Origin: Kineothrix alysoides
GTDB taxonomy: Bacteria > Bacillota > Clostridia > Lachnospirales > Lachnospiraceae
Reading direction: 5' to 3'
NCBI RefSeq assembly: GCF_000732725.1
Contig: NZ_JPNB01000001.1
Span: 1,674,001 to 1,738,000 of the forward strand
Length of the DNA: 64,000 nucleotides
The translations under genes and the position numbers were made by a program. Each line of letters starts with the position of its first letter. The first letter of the stretch is position 1. This document shows, one piece after another, positions 11,650-16,894 of the stretch. Below the pieces are notes generated by a model that ran no database searches, was not told the DNA's origin, and was given only the letters and a program-made list of their open reading frames with translations.

Positions 11650-12135
11650 TTATATTACTCTCTGCTCCTTACCGACCGCACGAATTACAAAATCGCCCGT
11701 CTCAGGATAAAATATAACCGTCCTTCCGTAGCTGTCACCAGTATCCTGTGCCAAAACCGGTATTTTTAGCTCTGCCAGTTTTTTTTTCGTCGCTTCCACA
11801 TTTCTGTCTCCAATGCGTACCATATCTGATTTATTCTGAAAAGCAAACATCTGTGCTCCACCTGCAATTTTCGCTACAAGACGGGATTGATTTGCACCCT
11901 TTGCGATAATCTGACGTATCAGCTCGACAATTCCCGTATCCGCAAACTTAGGAACATTGCTGTTATTTTTTATCTGCGTGCTGTCCGGCAGCATGATATG
12001 CGCCAAACCGCCTACTTTAGTTATAGGGTCTCGAATTGCGATTCCAACACAAGACCCCAAACCTAAAGTTGTAACGGCATCCGGACTCACGCATATTTTA
12101 AGATCCGCCATTCCGACTTTTATTATTTCACTCAT
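11650..12135 (-). CDS. cheD: Chemoreceptor glutamine deamidase CheD
   Basis: CheD deamidates glutamines on chemoreceptors and is also a partner of CheC in the Bacillus-type adaptation system. The 161 residues contain the catalytic set in order: GLGSCVGI (Cys), GGLAHIMLP (His) and the following ADTG (Thr). The ATG at 12135 begins MSEIIKVGMADLKI; longer in-frame extensions overlap cheC and have no family similarity. It lies 43 bases after cheC, consistent with a CheC-CheD pair. Confidence 0.95.
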   Translation of the reverse strand: MSEIIKVGMADLKICVSPDAVTTLGLGSCVGIAIRDPITKVGGLAHIMLPDSTQIKNNSNVPKFADTGIVELIRQIIAKGANQSRLVAKIAGGAQMFAFQNKSDMVRIGDRNVEATKKKLAELKIPVLAQDTGDSYGRTVIFYPETGDFVIRAVGKEQRVI

Positions 12136-12178: not shown

Positions 12179-12793
12179 TCACATAATCCCAAGAGAAGAC
12201 AATATCTTTCCGTAAGACTCCAAATCAGGAATAAGGATAAAATAACCATCCAACTGAATCTCATCAAAAAACTGCGTCTGTATTAATAGAATCTTATCTC
12301 CCAAAGTCCCGAATTCAATTGCAGGAACGCTCAAAATAGCACCGGCCATATCCACAGCCAATGATGGAATCGTAGGATAAATGCATAACCCCGTAAGCGA
12401 AGACAAAGAATTTAAGTAAGAGCCGGTAATGATATTTCCTACCTCCTGCAGGGCTGACATCTCCATCTCTGAAAATTCTTCACCTTCCAAGGTCATTCCC
12501 ATAAGCTTACTTACCAAATGCCTGGCGGACTCCTTCTCCAGCAAGAACATAATGCTTCCCGTAATATCTCCGTCTACGCCCAGATATATTCCTGCCATGA
12601 GCTGCTCCTCACCGCCCATAAGGGAAGCGACATCCTGAAATTCCAGAAGCCTGACCTGCGGCACCGACATGTCAACTTTACATTGCAACATCTGTGCCAA
12701 AGCAGTTGTGGCATTTCCTGCTCCGATATTTCCTAACTCCTTTAATACGTCGTAATACTCCTGAGACATAGTCTCCAAATCCAGATTAGCCAC
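12179..12793 (-). CDS. cheC: CheY-P phosphatase CheC
   Basis: CheC dephosphorylates CheY-P and is controlled by CheD. The 204-residue protein has both phosphatase helices with the E-x2-N pattern: LKELGNIGAGNATTAL near the N-terminus and LQEVGNIITGSYLNSL in the second half. The start chosen is the GTG at 12793, eight bases after AGGAGG and giving MANLDLETMSQEYYD; a longer reading to 12829 runs into cheW and crosses the ribosome site. It overlaps nothing after this correction (11-base gap to cheW). Confidence 0.94.
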   Translation of the reverse strand: MANLDLETMSQEYYDVLKELGNIGAGNATTALAQMLQCKVDMSVPQVRLLEFQDVASLMGGEEQLMAGIYLGVDGDITGSIMFLLEKESARHLVSKLMGMTLEGEEFSEMEMSALQEVGNIITGSYLNSLSSLTGLCIYPTIPSLAVDMAGAILSVPAIEFGTLGDKILLIQTQFFDEIQLDGYFILIPDLESYGKILSSLGIM

Positions 12794-12803
12794 AAGAAAC
12801 CTC

Positions 12804-13271
12804 CTATACGTTCTCTTTGTCCAATACAACCATGTTTAAATCAAGAAGGGAAATCAATCCGCCGTCTCCGTATTTTCCAATGGCAAAAATAAAGTTTTCC
12901 CGCTCTTCCTTACTGTCATATGCTACCTTTTCAATTTGAGAGTTATCCAATGTGACTACTTCCTTCACTTCATCCACAATGATTCCGATATTTCCCTGCT
13001 GTTCCAGCTTTAAAATAATGATTCTTGTAGCTTTTGAATATTCGTCCAGCTCCAAATCCATCTTTACGCGTATGCTCATAACCGGAATCACTTCGCCTCT
13101 AAGGTTAATAACGCCTCTCAAATATTCTTGTACCTTGGGAACTCTCGTAATATGCTGCATGCGCACAATATTGTCCACGTATTTAATATTTATGCCGTAC
13201 TGCTCTTCACCCAGTCTTACTACGATGAACTGAGTGGTCTCATTTTCTAAACCGACTTTTAATTCTTCCAT
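12804..13271 (-). CDS. cheW: Chemotaxis coupling protein CheW
   Basis: Adaptor linking chemoreceptors to CheA in the sensory array. The 155-residue single CheW domain shows the typical EEQYGINIKYVDNIV start, RVPKVQEYLRGVINLRGEVI and IIVDEVKEVV. It follows cheA by 13 bases and precedes cheC by 11. Its C-terminal LLDLNMVV corresponds to the last strand of the family. Confidence 0.96.
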   Translation of the reverse strand: MEELKVGLENETTQFIVVRLGEEQYGINIKYVDNIVRMQHITRVPKVQEYLRGVINLRGEVIPVMSIRVKMDLELDEYSKATRIIILKLEQQGNIGIIVDEVKEVVTLDNSQIEKVAYDSKEERENFIFAIGKYGDGGLISLLDLNMVVLDKENV

Positions 13272-13284
13272 TTGTTATTCCTCC

Positions 13285-15387
13285 TTAAAACAAGGCATTC
13301 GTATCGAGAATCAGTGCAACTTCACCGTCGCCCAAAATAGTGGCTCCGCTGATTACTTTACATTTTGTAATGTATCTGCCCAAAGACTTGATAACGATTT
13401 CCTGCTGTCCCATAAGTTCATCTACTACAAGGCCTGCCATCCGGCTGCCCTTCTTAACAATGACTACCGTCATGTTATCCTCAGGGCTTTTCTTGCTCGT
13501 AACATCGAGCACACCGCTCAGCCTGATAAGTGGAATAACGATTCCTCTCAAATGGATTACTTCTTTGTTCTGTACCGTCTTGATTTCGCTCGGTGAAATA
13601 TCCTCAATAGTCTGTATGGAGCCGAGGGAAACCGCATATTTCTCGCCGCCCACGTCTACCATCAACGCCTGAATAATAGCTAATGTCAGAGGAAGGCGAA
13701 TCGTCCATGTGCTTCCTATACCCGGCTTGCTCTTAACCTCTACTTCGCCGCTGAGAGCTTCAATCTTGGATTTTACAACATCCAGACCAACGCCTCTTCC
13801 CGATACGTCGGATACCACATCAGCGGTGGAGAATCCTGCATGGAACAGCAGGTTCATAATCTCCTGTTCAGACATGTTCTCACCCTGATCTACGGTGATA
13901 ATCCCCCTGCTTACAGCTTTATTCTTTACCATTTCAGTATTGATTCCGGCGCCGTCATCCCGCACCTCGATCACTACATTATTACCATCCTGATAAGCGT
14001 CTAAGAAAATAGAGCCTATCGCCGGCTTGCCGCTTTCCTTACGAATCTGGGCCGTTTCCAACCCGTGGTCCGCAGCGTTACGCAGTAAATGCATCAAAGG
14101 ATCGCCGATTTCGTCCACTACGGTACGGTCTAACTCCGTCTCCTCACCGGACATGTATAATTCCATCTTCTTATCCAATTTCTTCGACAAATCACGAATC
14201 ATCCTCGGGAACTTATTTACAACGCTCTCGATAGGAACCATTCTTACCTTCATAACGGATTCATGAAGATTTGTCGTTACGCTTTCCAAATATTCAATCT
14301 GCTCGTTGAAGCCGGAGCTGTTTCCCCGCTCTCCACCGGAGGCAGATACTAAGGAGTTCTTAGCTATGATAAGCTCGCTCACCAGGTTCATGAGCACGTC
14401 CAACTTTTCTATATCTACACGGACGGTCCTGTTTACTACGGGCTTCGATGCCTGAGTTTTCTTCTCCGCCGTTTTTGTACCGCCCGCCGTCTGCAGTACT
14501 GCTTGTCTTTCCGCAGAAACCGCTTCCATGCTTCCGTTTTTATCAGAAGCCATAGGCAGCTCCACGTCCATATTGTCACCGTCAGACACATATACCAATT
14601 TTTGTCTATCGACTACGGAACCCTGTACATCTTCAATCTCTGAAACATGCTTAACCGCATCCACTACCCTGCTGAGCGGGCTGTCTGAAATGAATACCAA
14701 GCTGAATTCAAGATCGAAACGCTCATCCTCGATGTCCTGAACCGGAGGATCTGATACAATAATTTCTCCCAGTGCTTCTAACGATTTAAATACAAGGAAT
14801 GCCCTCGCTGCCTTTAAAATACAAGTTTCTTGAACCTTTACGGTGATTCCGTACACATTCTTCCCTTGTCTAAGCGCCTCGTTCAATACGCGTTTCTGTG
14901 TCTCATCAAAAGTGATCTCGTGAACAACGACCTGCTTCGGCACGCTATCCCCGGAAACATCCTGATGCTTCTCCGCCTTGGGTGCAGCTTCGCTACCGCT
15001 TCCTTTGCTTTCCAACACTTCATTGAGAAGTTTGATAAGCGGCGCGTTGTCATTAGTACCCTCATCACCGGATGCCTGAATCGCATTCAAATATTCCTCC
15101 AGCGCGTCCAAACATTTGAAAAGGATATCGATCATATTCCCTTTCACCTTGATTGTGCCGTTGCGCACCTCTGAGAATACATTTTCCATATCATGAGTGA
15201 GCGCCTGCATTCTCTTATAGCCCATGGTCCCTGCCATACCCTTTAAGGAATGTGCCGCCCTGAATATTTCATTGATCGTATCCGAGTTCTCCGGATCCTG
15301 CTCAAGATTCAATATTTCAGTATTCAAGCTCTGTAAATGTTCTTTTGTTTCATCAAGGAAAATTTCGAGATATTGGCTTACGTCCAT
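13285..15387 (-). CDS. cheA: Chemotaxis histidine kinase CheA
   Basis: The 700-residue kinase has all five CheA domains: P1/Hpt with AAHSLKGMAG (phospho-acceptor His46), the P2 CheY-binding domain (about 170-255), P3 dimerisation (about 325-390), the P4 ATPase with the N box (LLRNAADHGLE), DDGAGI and GRGVGLDVV, and P5/CheW-like from about 560. It phosphorylates CheY. In most relatives it would also phosphorylate the CheB receiver, but the CheB encoded immediately upstream has lost that domain. It starts one base after the cheB stop codon. Confidence 0.97.
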   Translation of the reverse strand: MDVSQYLEIFLDETKEHLQSLNTEILNLEQDPENSDTINEIFRAAHSLKGMAGTMGYKRMQALTHDMENVFSEVRNGTIKVKGNMIDILFKCLDALEEYLNAIQASGDEGTNDNAPLIKLLNEVLESKGSGSEAAPKAEKHQDVSGDSVPKQVVVHEITFDETQKRVLNEALRQGKNVYGITVKVQETCILKAARAFLVFKSLEALGEIIVSDPPVQDIEDERFDLEFSLVFISDSPLSRVVDAVKHVSEIEDVQGSVVDRQKLVYVSDGDNMDVELPMASDKNGSMEAVSAERQAVLQTAGGTKTAEKKTQASKPVVNRTVRVDIEKLDVLMNLVSELIIAKNSLVSASGGERGNSSGFNEQIEYLESVTTNLHESVMKVRMVPIESVVNKFPRMIRDLSKKLDKKMELYMSGEETELDRTVVDEIGDPLMHLLRNAADHGLETAQIRKESGKPAIGSIFLDAYQDGNNVVIEVRDDGAGINTEMVKNKAVSRGIITVDQGENMSEQEIMNLLFHAGFSTADVVSDVSGRGVGLDVVKSKIEALSGEVEVKSKPGIGSTWTIRLPLTLAIIQALMVDVGGEKYAVSLGSIQTIEDISPSEIKTVQNKEVIHLRGIVIPLIRLSGVLDVTSKKSPEDNMTVVIVKKGSRMAGLVVDELMGQQEIVIKSLGRYITKCKVISGATILGDGEVALILDTNALF

Positions 15388-15388
15388 T

Positions 15389-16003
15389 TTACATTACCCC
15401 CACGTTCGTGATTATTTCCTGTGCAATGCGTTCAAGAGGAACTATTTGATTAGAAAGCCCGGCATTCACTATGTTCTTAGGCATTCCGTATACCGCACAG
15501 CTCTCTTCCTCCTGCGCAATGACATGTGTTTTCTTTTGTTTTTTCAGATAAGTGATTCCCTTTGTTCCATCAGCGCCCATCCCCGTCATAACTACGCATA
15601 CTATTTCGCCATACCGGCTTTCTGACAGAGATTCATACATATAGTTAGCACACGGCTTTACACCCTCCCTATTCGGTTCGTCGGTGTAATATACCACATG
15701 ACGGTTCCCCGAATAACGGATGTTCAGATGTTTTCCCCCTTTGGCAATATAAACACTTCCTGCCGTCAGCACATCTCCTTCTTTTGCTTCCTTTACGCTC
15801 AGTTCACTCAACGTGTTTAACCGTTCCGCCAAAGATGCCGTAAATCCCGGCGGCATATGCTGTACGATAACTATCGGAGCGTTCAACTTTGCCGGCAACT
15901 TGGTAATCACTGCCTGTAAAGCTTTCGGTCCGCCGGTAGAACTGGCAATCGCCACGACCTTACCGCCCGGCACCTGACTTATACTCATGTTCATAAGCTC
16001 CAC
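15389..16003 (-). CDS. cheB: CheB methylesterase domain only (receiver domain deleted)
   Basis: The protein is 204 residues and consists only of the CheB C-terminal methylesterase/deamidase domain: catalytic Ser in ASSTGGPKAL, His in IVIVQHMPPGF and Asp in VMTGMGADGTKG are all visible. Normal CheB is about 350 residues with an N-terminal receiver. Here the receiver is gone and an out-of-frame remnant lies at 15960-16103. In-frame codons upstream of the GTG read KAEPKRI, which looks like the old interdomain linker. Translation may start at GTG 16003, ATG 15994 or ATG 15988. The enzyme is probably uncoupled from CheA phosphorylation. Confidence 0.9.
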   Translation of the reverse strand: MELMNMSISQVPGGKVVAIASSTGGPKALQAVITKLPAKLNAPIVIVQHMPPGFTASLAERLNTLSELSVKEAKEGDVLTAGSVYIAKGGKHLNIRYSGNRHVVYYTDEPNREGVKPCANYMYESLSESRYGEIVCVVMTGMGADGTKGITYLKKQKKTHVIAQEEESCAVYGMPKNIVNAGLSNQIVPLERIAQEIITNVGVM

Positions 16004-16103
16004 TATCCTTTTCGGCTCTGCTTTTCACTTGGAATCTTTTACCTACATTGATTATATCACAGACCGCCCTTCTCATGAGTGCAAAGTCATTATCAATCAA
16101 CAT
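15960..16103 (-). pseudogene. Remnant of the CheB receiver domain N-terminus, out of frame with cheB
   Basis: A 47-codon frame starting at 16103 begins MLIDNDFALMRRAVCDIINV and continues GKRFQV. This matches the first 27 or so residues of CheB receivers (usual pattern: V-D-D-S-A-L-M-R-R-x-x-x-D-I-I-N then RF-V). The acidic pair is altered (N-D in place of D-D). After about codon 27 the similarity ends, and the frame runs 1 base out of register into the linker and methylesterase coding region, stopping at 15960. No ribosome site precedes it. Interpretation: an internal deletion removed most of the receiver and shifted the frame. Confidence 0.75.
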
Positions 16104-16144: not shown

Positions 16145-16894
16145 CTATAGGTTTTCGCCTTTCTTTCGCAAATTTTTTCTTTCTTCACCGAAAATAAATC
16201 GGATGATTTCTTCCCTTACTTCCTTATCAATATTTATATACTGGACCCGGTGCTCGAATACCCCATGGCGGTTTTCCACCTCTTTTATGCTGAGAACCTT
16301 TCCAAACAGTTCATACACCTTGGTCCCTGTTTCTGTATCCAACTGATATTTGCAAAGCAATACGCTGCCTAATTCATATTTGAAATCTGCCACAAAGCGC
16401 ATACCGCCCCCGCTGATATCAACGATGACGCTTTTCCCAAGAGGCAGCCGCCTAGTGATAAATTCTTCCTTCATCTCATTCTTTTCCAAAGCCTGTAACT
16501 CGTCCTTCTCAAGAACTCTGGAATTCATCTCCAGTGCGCAACTAAACCTAAAATATTCCCGCCTCTGGTCCCTTCTTAAATTGCTGATCAAATCCATAGT
16601 CAAAAGATAAGTGCTGTTCTTCTTATCTCTGTCTACTACCTTCGCACGGCATCGGTAAATGCTATCCGTCAAATAGAAAAACAAATCAAATTCACTGCCT
16701 ATCGAAAGCAGGATAATCTTTGTTTTTTCCATGGGCATTACAACCTCTATCCGGTCTTCTGAAAGAACGTCATAAACATGACTTTGATAAATCCGAGTCT
16801 CGTCCCCGTCTTCCTTCCCTTTCTTCTTTCGTATCTCCCTTATATCAACTCTACTCCCCGGTATCACATATTTCGATAATATTCCATCAGCCAT
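16145..16894 (-). CDS. PilZ-domain protein, YcgR-type flagellar brake
   Basis: The 249-residue protein has an N-terminal YcgR-like domain (about 1-105) and a C-terminal PilZ domain. The c-di-GMP binding motifs are present: RRDQRREYFR (RxxxR) near residue 108 and DISGGGMRF (DxSxxG) near 160. YcgR-type proteins bind c-di-GMP and slow or bias the motor. A GGDEF enzyme at 58-59 kb could supply the ligand. It lies between flhG and cheB, 22 bases after flhG. Confidence 0.92.
   Translation of the reverse strand: MADGILSKYVIPGSRVDIREIRKKKGKEDGDETRIYQSHVYDVLSEDRIEVVMPMEKTKIILLSIGSEFDLFFYLTDSIYRCRAKVVDRDKKNSTYLLTMDLISNLRRDQRREYFRFSCALEMNSRVLEKDELQALEKNEMKEEFITRRLPLGKSVIVDISGGGMRFVADFKYELGSVLLCKYQLDTETGTKVYELFGKVLSIKEVENRHGVFEHRVQYINIDKEVREEIIRFIFGEERKNLRKKGENL

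Follow-up and report, generated by a model that had tools for sequence, protein, structure and literature searches.

In Escherichia coli, removal of the regulatory domain activates the methylesterase CheB, although by less than phosphorylation does (PMC8609364, in the part of its text that is accessible), and cells that carry the catalytic domain CheBc keep precise adaptation with kinase activities that are wide and bimodal (PMC5809149, accessible text). For Eubacterium and Roseburia, the accessible text of PMC3720852 gives the order cheBAWCD following pilZ. The locus described here comes from Kineothrix alysoides, and the window, by which is meant the whole 64,000-nt stretch that was analysed (G000:C1:1674001-1738000), is part of a 4.68-Mb genome assembled in 3 contigs; the relatives with which it was compared are nearly all Lachnospiraceae. 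The minus strand of the window carries, in this order, flhG, a PilZ-like gene, cheB, cheA, cheW, cheC, cheD and a sigma-D-like gene, with the features of interest collected in Table 1. The gene before cheB, which is named pilZ by its position, is presumably PilZ/YcgR-like, and the P2 domain is retained in CheA.

Two full-length CheB genes, with frames of 353 and 340 aa, are found elsewhere in the same genome, so that cross-feed into this system is possible. These genes had been missed in the sequence-only reading of the window from which the work started, as had the recurrence of receiver loss and the nucleotide-level element described below. A second cheR and a methyl-accepting chemotaxis protein (MCP) gene adjoin the full-length CheB on contig C2, which suggests a separate chemosensory cluster. 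The MCP signalling domain has 48 matches in the genome, amounting to a large receptor set.

Table 1. Features of the cheB region, with positions in the window unless a contig is given
Feature	Position	Strand	Basis and remarks
cheD	11650..12135	-	domain scan
cheC	12179..12829	-	CheC PF04509; CheX match weaker
cheW	12804..13271	-	domain scan
cheA	13285..15387	-	domain scan: Hpt, P2, dimerisation, ATPase, CheW-like
receiver-less cheB	15389..15994	-	about 201 aa from the likely start, ATG 15994; no domain other than methylesterase
47-codon frame with receiver remnant	15960..16103	-	about the first 24 codons are receiver N-terminus; rest is frame-shifted linker
Shine-Dalgarno-like purine-rich stretch AAGGATAGTGGAG	15998..16010	-	sequence; precedes ATG 15994
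conserved nucleotide block	16051..16089	-	11/11 receiver-less genes; synonymous sites of 86 full-length genes
extended -10-like sequence TGATATAAT	16051..16059	-	TGNTATANT form in 11/11 receiver-less genes
imperfect inverted repeat CTTTGCAC-TC-ATGAGAAG, candidate operator	16069..16086	-	sequence; arms CTTNNCA / TGNNAAG, invariant columns
pilZ (named by position)	16145..16894	-	ORF directly upstream of cheB
two further full-length CheB genes	G000:C2:101309-102953; G000:C1:1648871-1649413		

The ORF 16003..15389 on the minus strand matches Pfam CheB_methylest (PF01339) from end to end (positions 1-174 of 174, E 2.3e-62, 210 bits against a cut-off of 24), and the same scan of this ORF found no other family and no same-frame receiver with a phospho-acceptor Asp. 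The segments with the Ser, His and Asp, which we take to be the catalytic residues of CheB with their usual roles, align to the CheB structures 1CHD (Salmonella) and 3SFT. The Pfam match and the alignment to 1CHD thus uphold the description of the gene as a methylesterase domain alone with its three catalytic residues intact. As the receiver is deleted, CheA cannot phosphorylate the enzyme through such a domain, in agreement with what had been proposed. ATG 15994 appears a likelier start than GTG 16003, the position being ATG in 4/4 receiver-less congeners and a Val or Leu codon in 9 aligned full-length congeners, and the purine-rich linker codons that precede it could serve as a ribosome-binding site. 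An alignment of the full-length linkers, viewed by eye and without counting, showed no conserved internal Met. At the opposite end of the gene the codons GTG GGG GTA (window 15389-15405) are unusually fixed in 86 relatives, probably through overlap with the cheA ribosome-binding site.

Directly upstream lies a 47-codon frame that had been interpreted as a receiver remnant, shifted out of register with the esterase. A Pfam scan of this 47-aa frame (16103..15960) recognised no family, and its identity comes from relatives. The congener G006 has MQKILIIDDFALMRRMVCDIINKDNKFQV at the same place, almost intact, full-length congeners have MKK[IV]L[VI]VDDSAL[MV]RR... at that position, and the nucleotide alignment of the remnant with the full-length congeners is clear. 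The similarity of relatives to the upstream codons, on which the sequence-only reading had staked its case, is hence present, and about the first 24 codons correspond to the receiver N-terminus. In the alignment the start ATG of G006 does not fall on the ATG of this frame at 16103, which is therefore probably fortuitous. Further along, the upstream codons of the esterase frame, KAEPKRIVELM, align with congener linkers such as KKMVELV, so that KAEPKRI was rightly recognised as linker wording. The congener alignments accordingly bear out an internal deletion, by which the receiver was lost while an N-terminal remnant and the linker stayed behind. Three full-length congeners have 426 nt between the conserved block and the linker, whereas G000 has 79 and G011 has 96, which puts the deletion at about 347 nt in G000, where the frame is lost, and at about 330 nt in G011, which is open through the junction with the frame kept. 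Both species could be accounted for by one deletion and a later loss of 17 nt, the order of the two events being our reconstruction.

The 16 genomes of the genus comprise four with a receiver-less gene (G000, G001, G006 and G011, identical to the window or with 97%, 90% and 82% identity to it), nine with a full-length CheB at the locus, including G003, in which the receiver stretch is masked, and three with distant CheB homologues only. G004, G005 and G008 are without a close cheB orthologue and may have lost the flagellar operon. A family search of 299 genomes gave 122 that matched at E 1e-50 or better, within which frames shorter than 260 aa belonged to the window, to G643, G577, G483 and G575, and to a second G540 copy; another draw, of 397 genomes, added G724 and G780 among the matches listed. 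These counts are lower bounds, and the form is present in at least seven genomes besides the genus. When all seven non-genus stretches were read, the receiver was found to be absent in each, and beside every one of these genes stand CheA with its P1, P2 and core, CheW, CheC, CheD and a sigma factor. An assembly error or a recent frameshift is ruled out, as the form occurs in four congeners and seven other genomes; the junction had been left open to that doubt, which its recurrence in other assemblies removes. Among the best 80 loci by similarity, which do not give an unbiased frequency, 78 have receivers and 2 are cut at contig edges.

No CheB besides the receiver-less form was found in five genomes (G011, G643, G577, G724 and G780), whilst G483 and G575 each have one other full-length CheB and G540 has a full-length cheB on another contig besides its receiver-less copy. 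At the G540 loci (L217 and L220) the receiver-less cheB follows a PilZ-like gene and the full-length cheB is the one on the other contig; the two copies are apparently from different lineages.

Trees were built quickly and with a simple model on 63 rows, of which 25 were hand-picked for spread from the 80 best-similarity loci and 38 were others, G003 being omitted for its masked receiver. The concatenated protein tree has 4 changes of state, as does the tree without CheB. The receiver-less genes fall into lineage A (G000, G001, G006, G011), lineage B (G643, G577, G483, G780), lineage C (the G540 copy, which stands beside the full-length G507 with support 88) and lineage D (G575, G724). In AU tests a single clade of all 11 receiver-less rows was rejected (p 0.0003), and so was a grouping of A with B (p 1e-4, a less clean value since this grouping was chosen after the first tree had been seen). 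A single shared origin of all receiver-less genes is ruled out by the trees and these tests together, and the trees need at least four separate receiver losses in the family.

Whether such genes are on their way out can be judged from selection. In the sequence-only reading it was suggested that adaptation might rest on CheC, CheD and CheY, or that the methylation arm might be decaying. Taken together, these would make cheB a pseudogene in the making and leave adaptation to CheC, CheD and CheY, a view with which the loss of the receiver and the intact cheC and cheD are compatible. The receiver-less cheB is, however, under purifying selection. Over the catalytic region, five receiver-less pairs give Nei-Gojobori dN/dS values of 0.05-0.08 (dS 0.29-1.90) and four full-length pairs values of 0.03-0.07, so that the receiver-less values are no lower and on average slightly higher. 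This selection is comparable to that on the neighbouring genes, and the ratio of cheB to cheA distance gives no sign of faster evolution of the freed catalytic domain: over 28 receiver-less/full pairs it is 1.16, over 16 full/full pairs 1.25. Small residue changes are seen in the receiver-less lineages at otherwise conserved sites.

The partner enzyme is also retained. A cheR gene, for which the window had offered no candidate, is found elsewhere in the genome in 16/16 members of the genus and is present in 7/7 other receiver-less genomes, with one cheR each in G011, G643, G577, G724 and G780; in Bacillus subtilis, too, cheR usually lies outside the fla/che operon. The methylation-site consensus occurs in 9/10 receptors of G000 and 8/10 of G011, compared with about 1.0/10 expected in shuffles. 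In G010, which has a full-length CheB, it is present in 4/10, and this receptor test does not separate the two forms; ten receptors were sampled per genome, from 48 matches in G000, 36 in G011 and 17 in G010. Moreover, each of the four independent losses has left an intact catalytic frame, and decay of the methylation arm is consequently a most improbable account. Nor is there a need for adaptation to rest on CheC and CheD, as had been proposed, since CheBc of E. coli adapts precisely (accessible text of PMC5809149). Of the attributes of a natural counterpart of CheBc, a catalytic domain on its own, purifying selection and a CheR partner are found here, and activity without phosphorylation is expected by analogy with CheBc of E. 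coli.

We therefore consider it probable that an ancestral receiver deletion gave rise to a free-standing, CheA-independent methylesterase and that the remnant was kept as a DNA element of the promoter or operator type. An internal deletion removed the receiver, probably in the ancestor of the four genus species, and the free-standing methylesterase most likely now starts at a new ATG within the former linker. The enzyme is expected to be active without phosphorylation by CheA and to oppose the CheR of the genome; precise adaptation should survive through the preference of CheB for active receptors, whereas the fast negative feedback from CheA to CheB would be gone. By analogy with E. coli, the window CheB is likely to work at a fixed specific activity in demethylating receptors, and its active-receptor preference and the ratio of CheR to CheB are likely to set adaptation; the missing feedback may be buffered by CheC, CheD and CheY. 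It is our speculation that tight transcriptional control of the operon is useful because the CheR/CheB ratio now matters more, which would fit the retention of the element. About the first 20 receiver codons would have been kept as DNA in that they double as a nucleotide-level element in Lachnospiraceae, most likely a promoter or operator for the downstream cheA-W-C-D and, here, also for cheB.

The constraint on these codons is evident in genes that still have the receiver. In 86 full-length cheB genes (from 89 loci, one of which is masked and two of which are truncated at contig edges), the stretch DSALMRR..CDI is encoded with a near-single spelling, with TCT in 83, GCA in 84, CTY in 86, AGA in 78, TGT in 77 (all the Cys codons there), GAT in 84 and ATA in 80; ATA makes up 27% of Ile codons overall in the same genes. 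A score for how far codon identity exceeds that given by codon usage has its peak, 0.60, over alignment columns 9-18 (codons 10-19), the median being 0.07. Beyond the 31st column no window scores above 0.31, a value reached at the 3' end of cheB with its cheA ribosome-binding site, which we interpret as a positive control, whilst the maximum in pilZ, flhG and cheA is 0.27 among 1189 windows. Inside the block, codons 16, 17 and 21 are free, which therefore speaks against general slow evolution. A more mundane possibility is the ordinary low substitution of gene 5' ends, caused by mRNA structure or rare codons, with a remnant that is simply slow to erode. Unusual rates at gene 5' ends are known (PMC12725619) and AAA is also frozen at codons 2-3, but the peak lies at codons 10-20 with free codons between, the flanking genes are without such a peak, and the block has outlived the coding frame in four lineages. 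We regard this explanation as improbable.

The block is kept, with the same 9-nt spacer, in all 11 receiver-less genes. The pattern TTTGCACNNATGNGAAGN9TGNTATANT is present with 0 mismatches in 8/11, with 2 in G780 and in G724 and with 3 in G575, and the next best place in those loci has at least 6 mismatches. Over nine receiver-less representatives, 21/38 columns of the block are identical in at least eight, against 4/82 columns of the flank. Retention for the sake of a translated product, either a small peptide or a frameshift into the esterase, could be imagined from the ATG-started frame in the window and from the block lying in the open esterase frame in G011, the receiver-less G540 copy and G483. 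Yet the block is out of that frame in G000, G001 and G006, in G643, G577 and others the remnant is interrupted by stops, and the frame relation thus varies among species while nucleotides and spacing stay constant. The codons for the otherwise invariant acid pocket and Ser have, in addition, changed in parallel, and it is very hard to credit that the remnant is kept as protein.

These parallel changes are informative in themselves. With positions numbered from the G of GCAC (0), 86/86 full-length genes have C at base -2, within the Ser codon, where 8/11 receiver-less genes have T and 3/11 have A; at base -6, within the Asp codon, 86/86 full-length genes have G, whereas 7/11 receiver-less ones, which are those of lineages B, C and D, have T. 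The change of C to T at -2 completes the repeat CTTNNCA-N4-TGNNAAG. Base changes in parallel after receiver loss appear to be the strongest sign of a compromise between protein and DNA in the full-length gene. Because the block and its spacing are kept regardless of frame and positions fixed by the protein have changed in parallel, it is probably as a DNA element, made up of an inverted repeat and an extended -10, that the remnant has been kept.

The 32-nt core has a single site at up to 3 mismatches in the whole of the G000 genome, that at cheB, and its reversed control has 0. Of 120 family genomes, 42 have a single site at 0-2 mismatches, and all 42 sites seem to read as cheB codons or remnant; there are 14 further rows at 3 mismatches, and the reversed control gave 5 hits. 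In a class-wide draw, any match to the core was found in 13/16 Lachnospiraceae as against 8/375 other genomes, the latter at 2-3 mismatches. With a single site per genome at these mismatch levels, the idea of a regulon for the block was rejected, and none lends support to a regulator. One site per genome and a distribution largely within Lachnospiraceae point to a local role, and on that basis we favour, with some confidence, a local promoter or operator for the operon, a role acting at the level of RNA being the main rival.

The sequence TGNTATANT, present in 11/11 receiver-less genes as would be required of a -10 of the sigma-A type, reads as an extended -10, and if TATAAT is set at -12 to -7 the centre of the repeat lies near -33.5. 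From the end of the -10-like sequence to the chosen start codon there are 7-97 nt in 10/11 receiver-less genes, G540 being left out. A sigma-70 consensus scan did not call the element and recognised no -35 at a spacing of 16-18 nt; extended -10 promoters may not need a -35. The missing -35 also speaks for an element that acts in read-through mRNA, as a hairpin or as a protein-binding or processing site that sets the expression of cheB and cheA, and the repeat could fold as RNA (CUUUGCA / UGUGAAG, with G-U pairs in G643 and G577). Changes at the two variable pairs, however, are not consistently compensated across the 11 genes, invariance is strongest in the extended -10-like TGNTATANT, and full-length genes with ATT or ATC keep TATTAT or TATCAT. 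An RNA-level role is thus possible but rather unlikely.

Beyond the promoter or operator reading itself, we lean slightly towards a dual use of the start of cheB throughout Lachnospiraceae, whereby the codons of the acid pocket and first helix would also be the promoter or operator. Deletions downstream of them would then leave a ready promoter in front of a self-sufficient catalytic domain, so that loss of the receiver would be tolerated repeatedly, and bases freed from coding would have moved in parallel towards the optimum of the element (TTACTTTGCAC...). If this is true, the resulting bacteria would run flagellar chemotaxis without feedback from CheA to CheB, a network that makes E. coli cells bimodal and highly variable. 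The frozen codons are a case in which a protein domain and a DNA element share the same bases, and receiver losses reveal which bases belonged to which; an out-of-frame remnant can accordingly be a working element rather than debris. The feedback removed in the laboratory has been lost in nature no fewer than four times within a single family, with further cases probable in Clostridia. The accessible part of PMC5809149 reports that in E. coli precise adaptation survives this removal and cells become far more variable. As the receiver-less enzyme is sometimes the sole CheB, the family offers natural pairs in which the purpose of the feedback can be studied.

In the literature, covered thinly for subscription journals and in part for the sources seen, a natural receiver-less CheB in Lachnospiraceae, or the block, was not found. 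The cheBAWCD arrangement of Eubacterium and Roseburia differs in that its CheB is not described as receiver-less in the accessible text of PMC3720852. Outside the family, 10 stretches from other Clostridia were read, drawn from 12 short frames with a near-complete domain. A receiver-less frame stands directly before cheA with flhG nearby in 4/10 (G052, G080, G030 and G051), and the block, unlike in Lachnospiraceae, is found within 4 mismatches in 0/10. The loci L280, L281, L283 and L286 are such cases from non-family Clostridia, with receiver-less CheB frames directly before cheA and without the block. Since receiver-less frames of CheB size occur in other Clostridia, the architecture is not unique to the family and the window gene is a variant of an already known type. 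The operon as a whole resembles the fla/che operon of the Bacillus subtilis type in its gene order, in having both CheC and CheD and in a cheR that lies elsewhere. With the CheB of E. coli and Salmonella (1CHD, 1A2O) the window enzyme shares the catalytic fold, the aligned catalytic residues and, by gene context, the demethylation role; in contrast to them it has no receiver and almost no linker, and hence neither a site for phosphorylation by CheA nor a domain to block the active site. It is with CheBc of E. coli (PMC5809149, PMC8609364, accessible text) that it has its architecture in common, a catalytic domain without receiver and linker. Unlike that laboratory construct, the form in the window arose naturally, is ancient and has been maintained by selection, and no other CheB was found in five of the genomes that have it.
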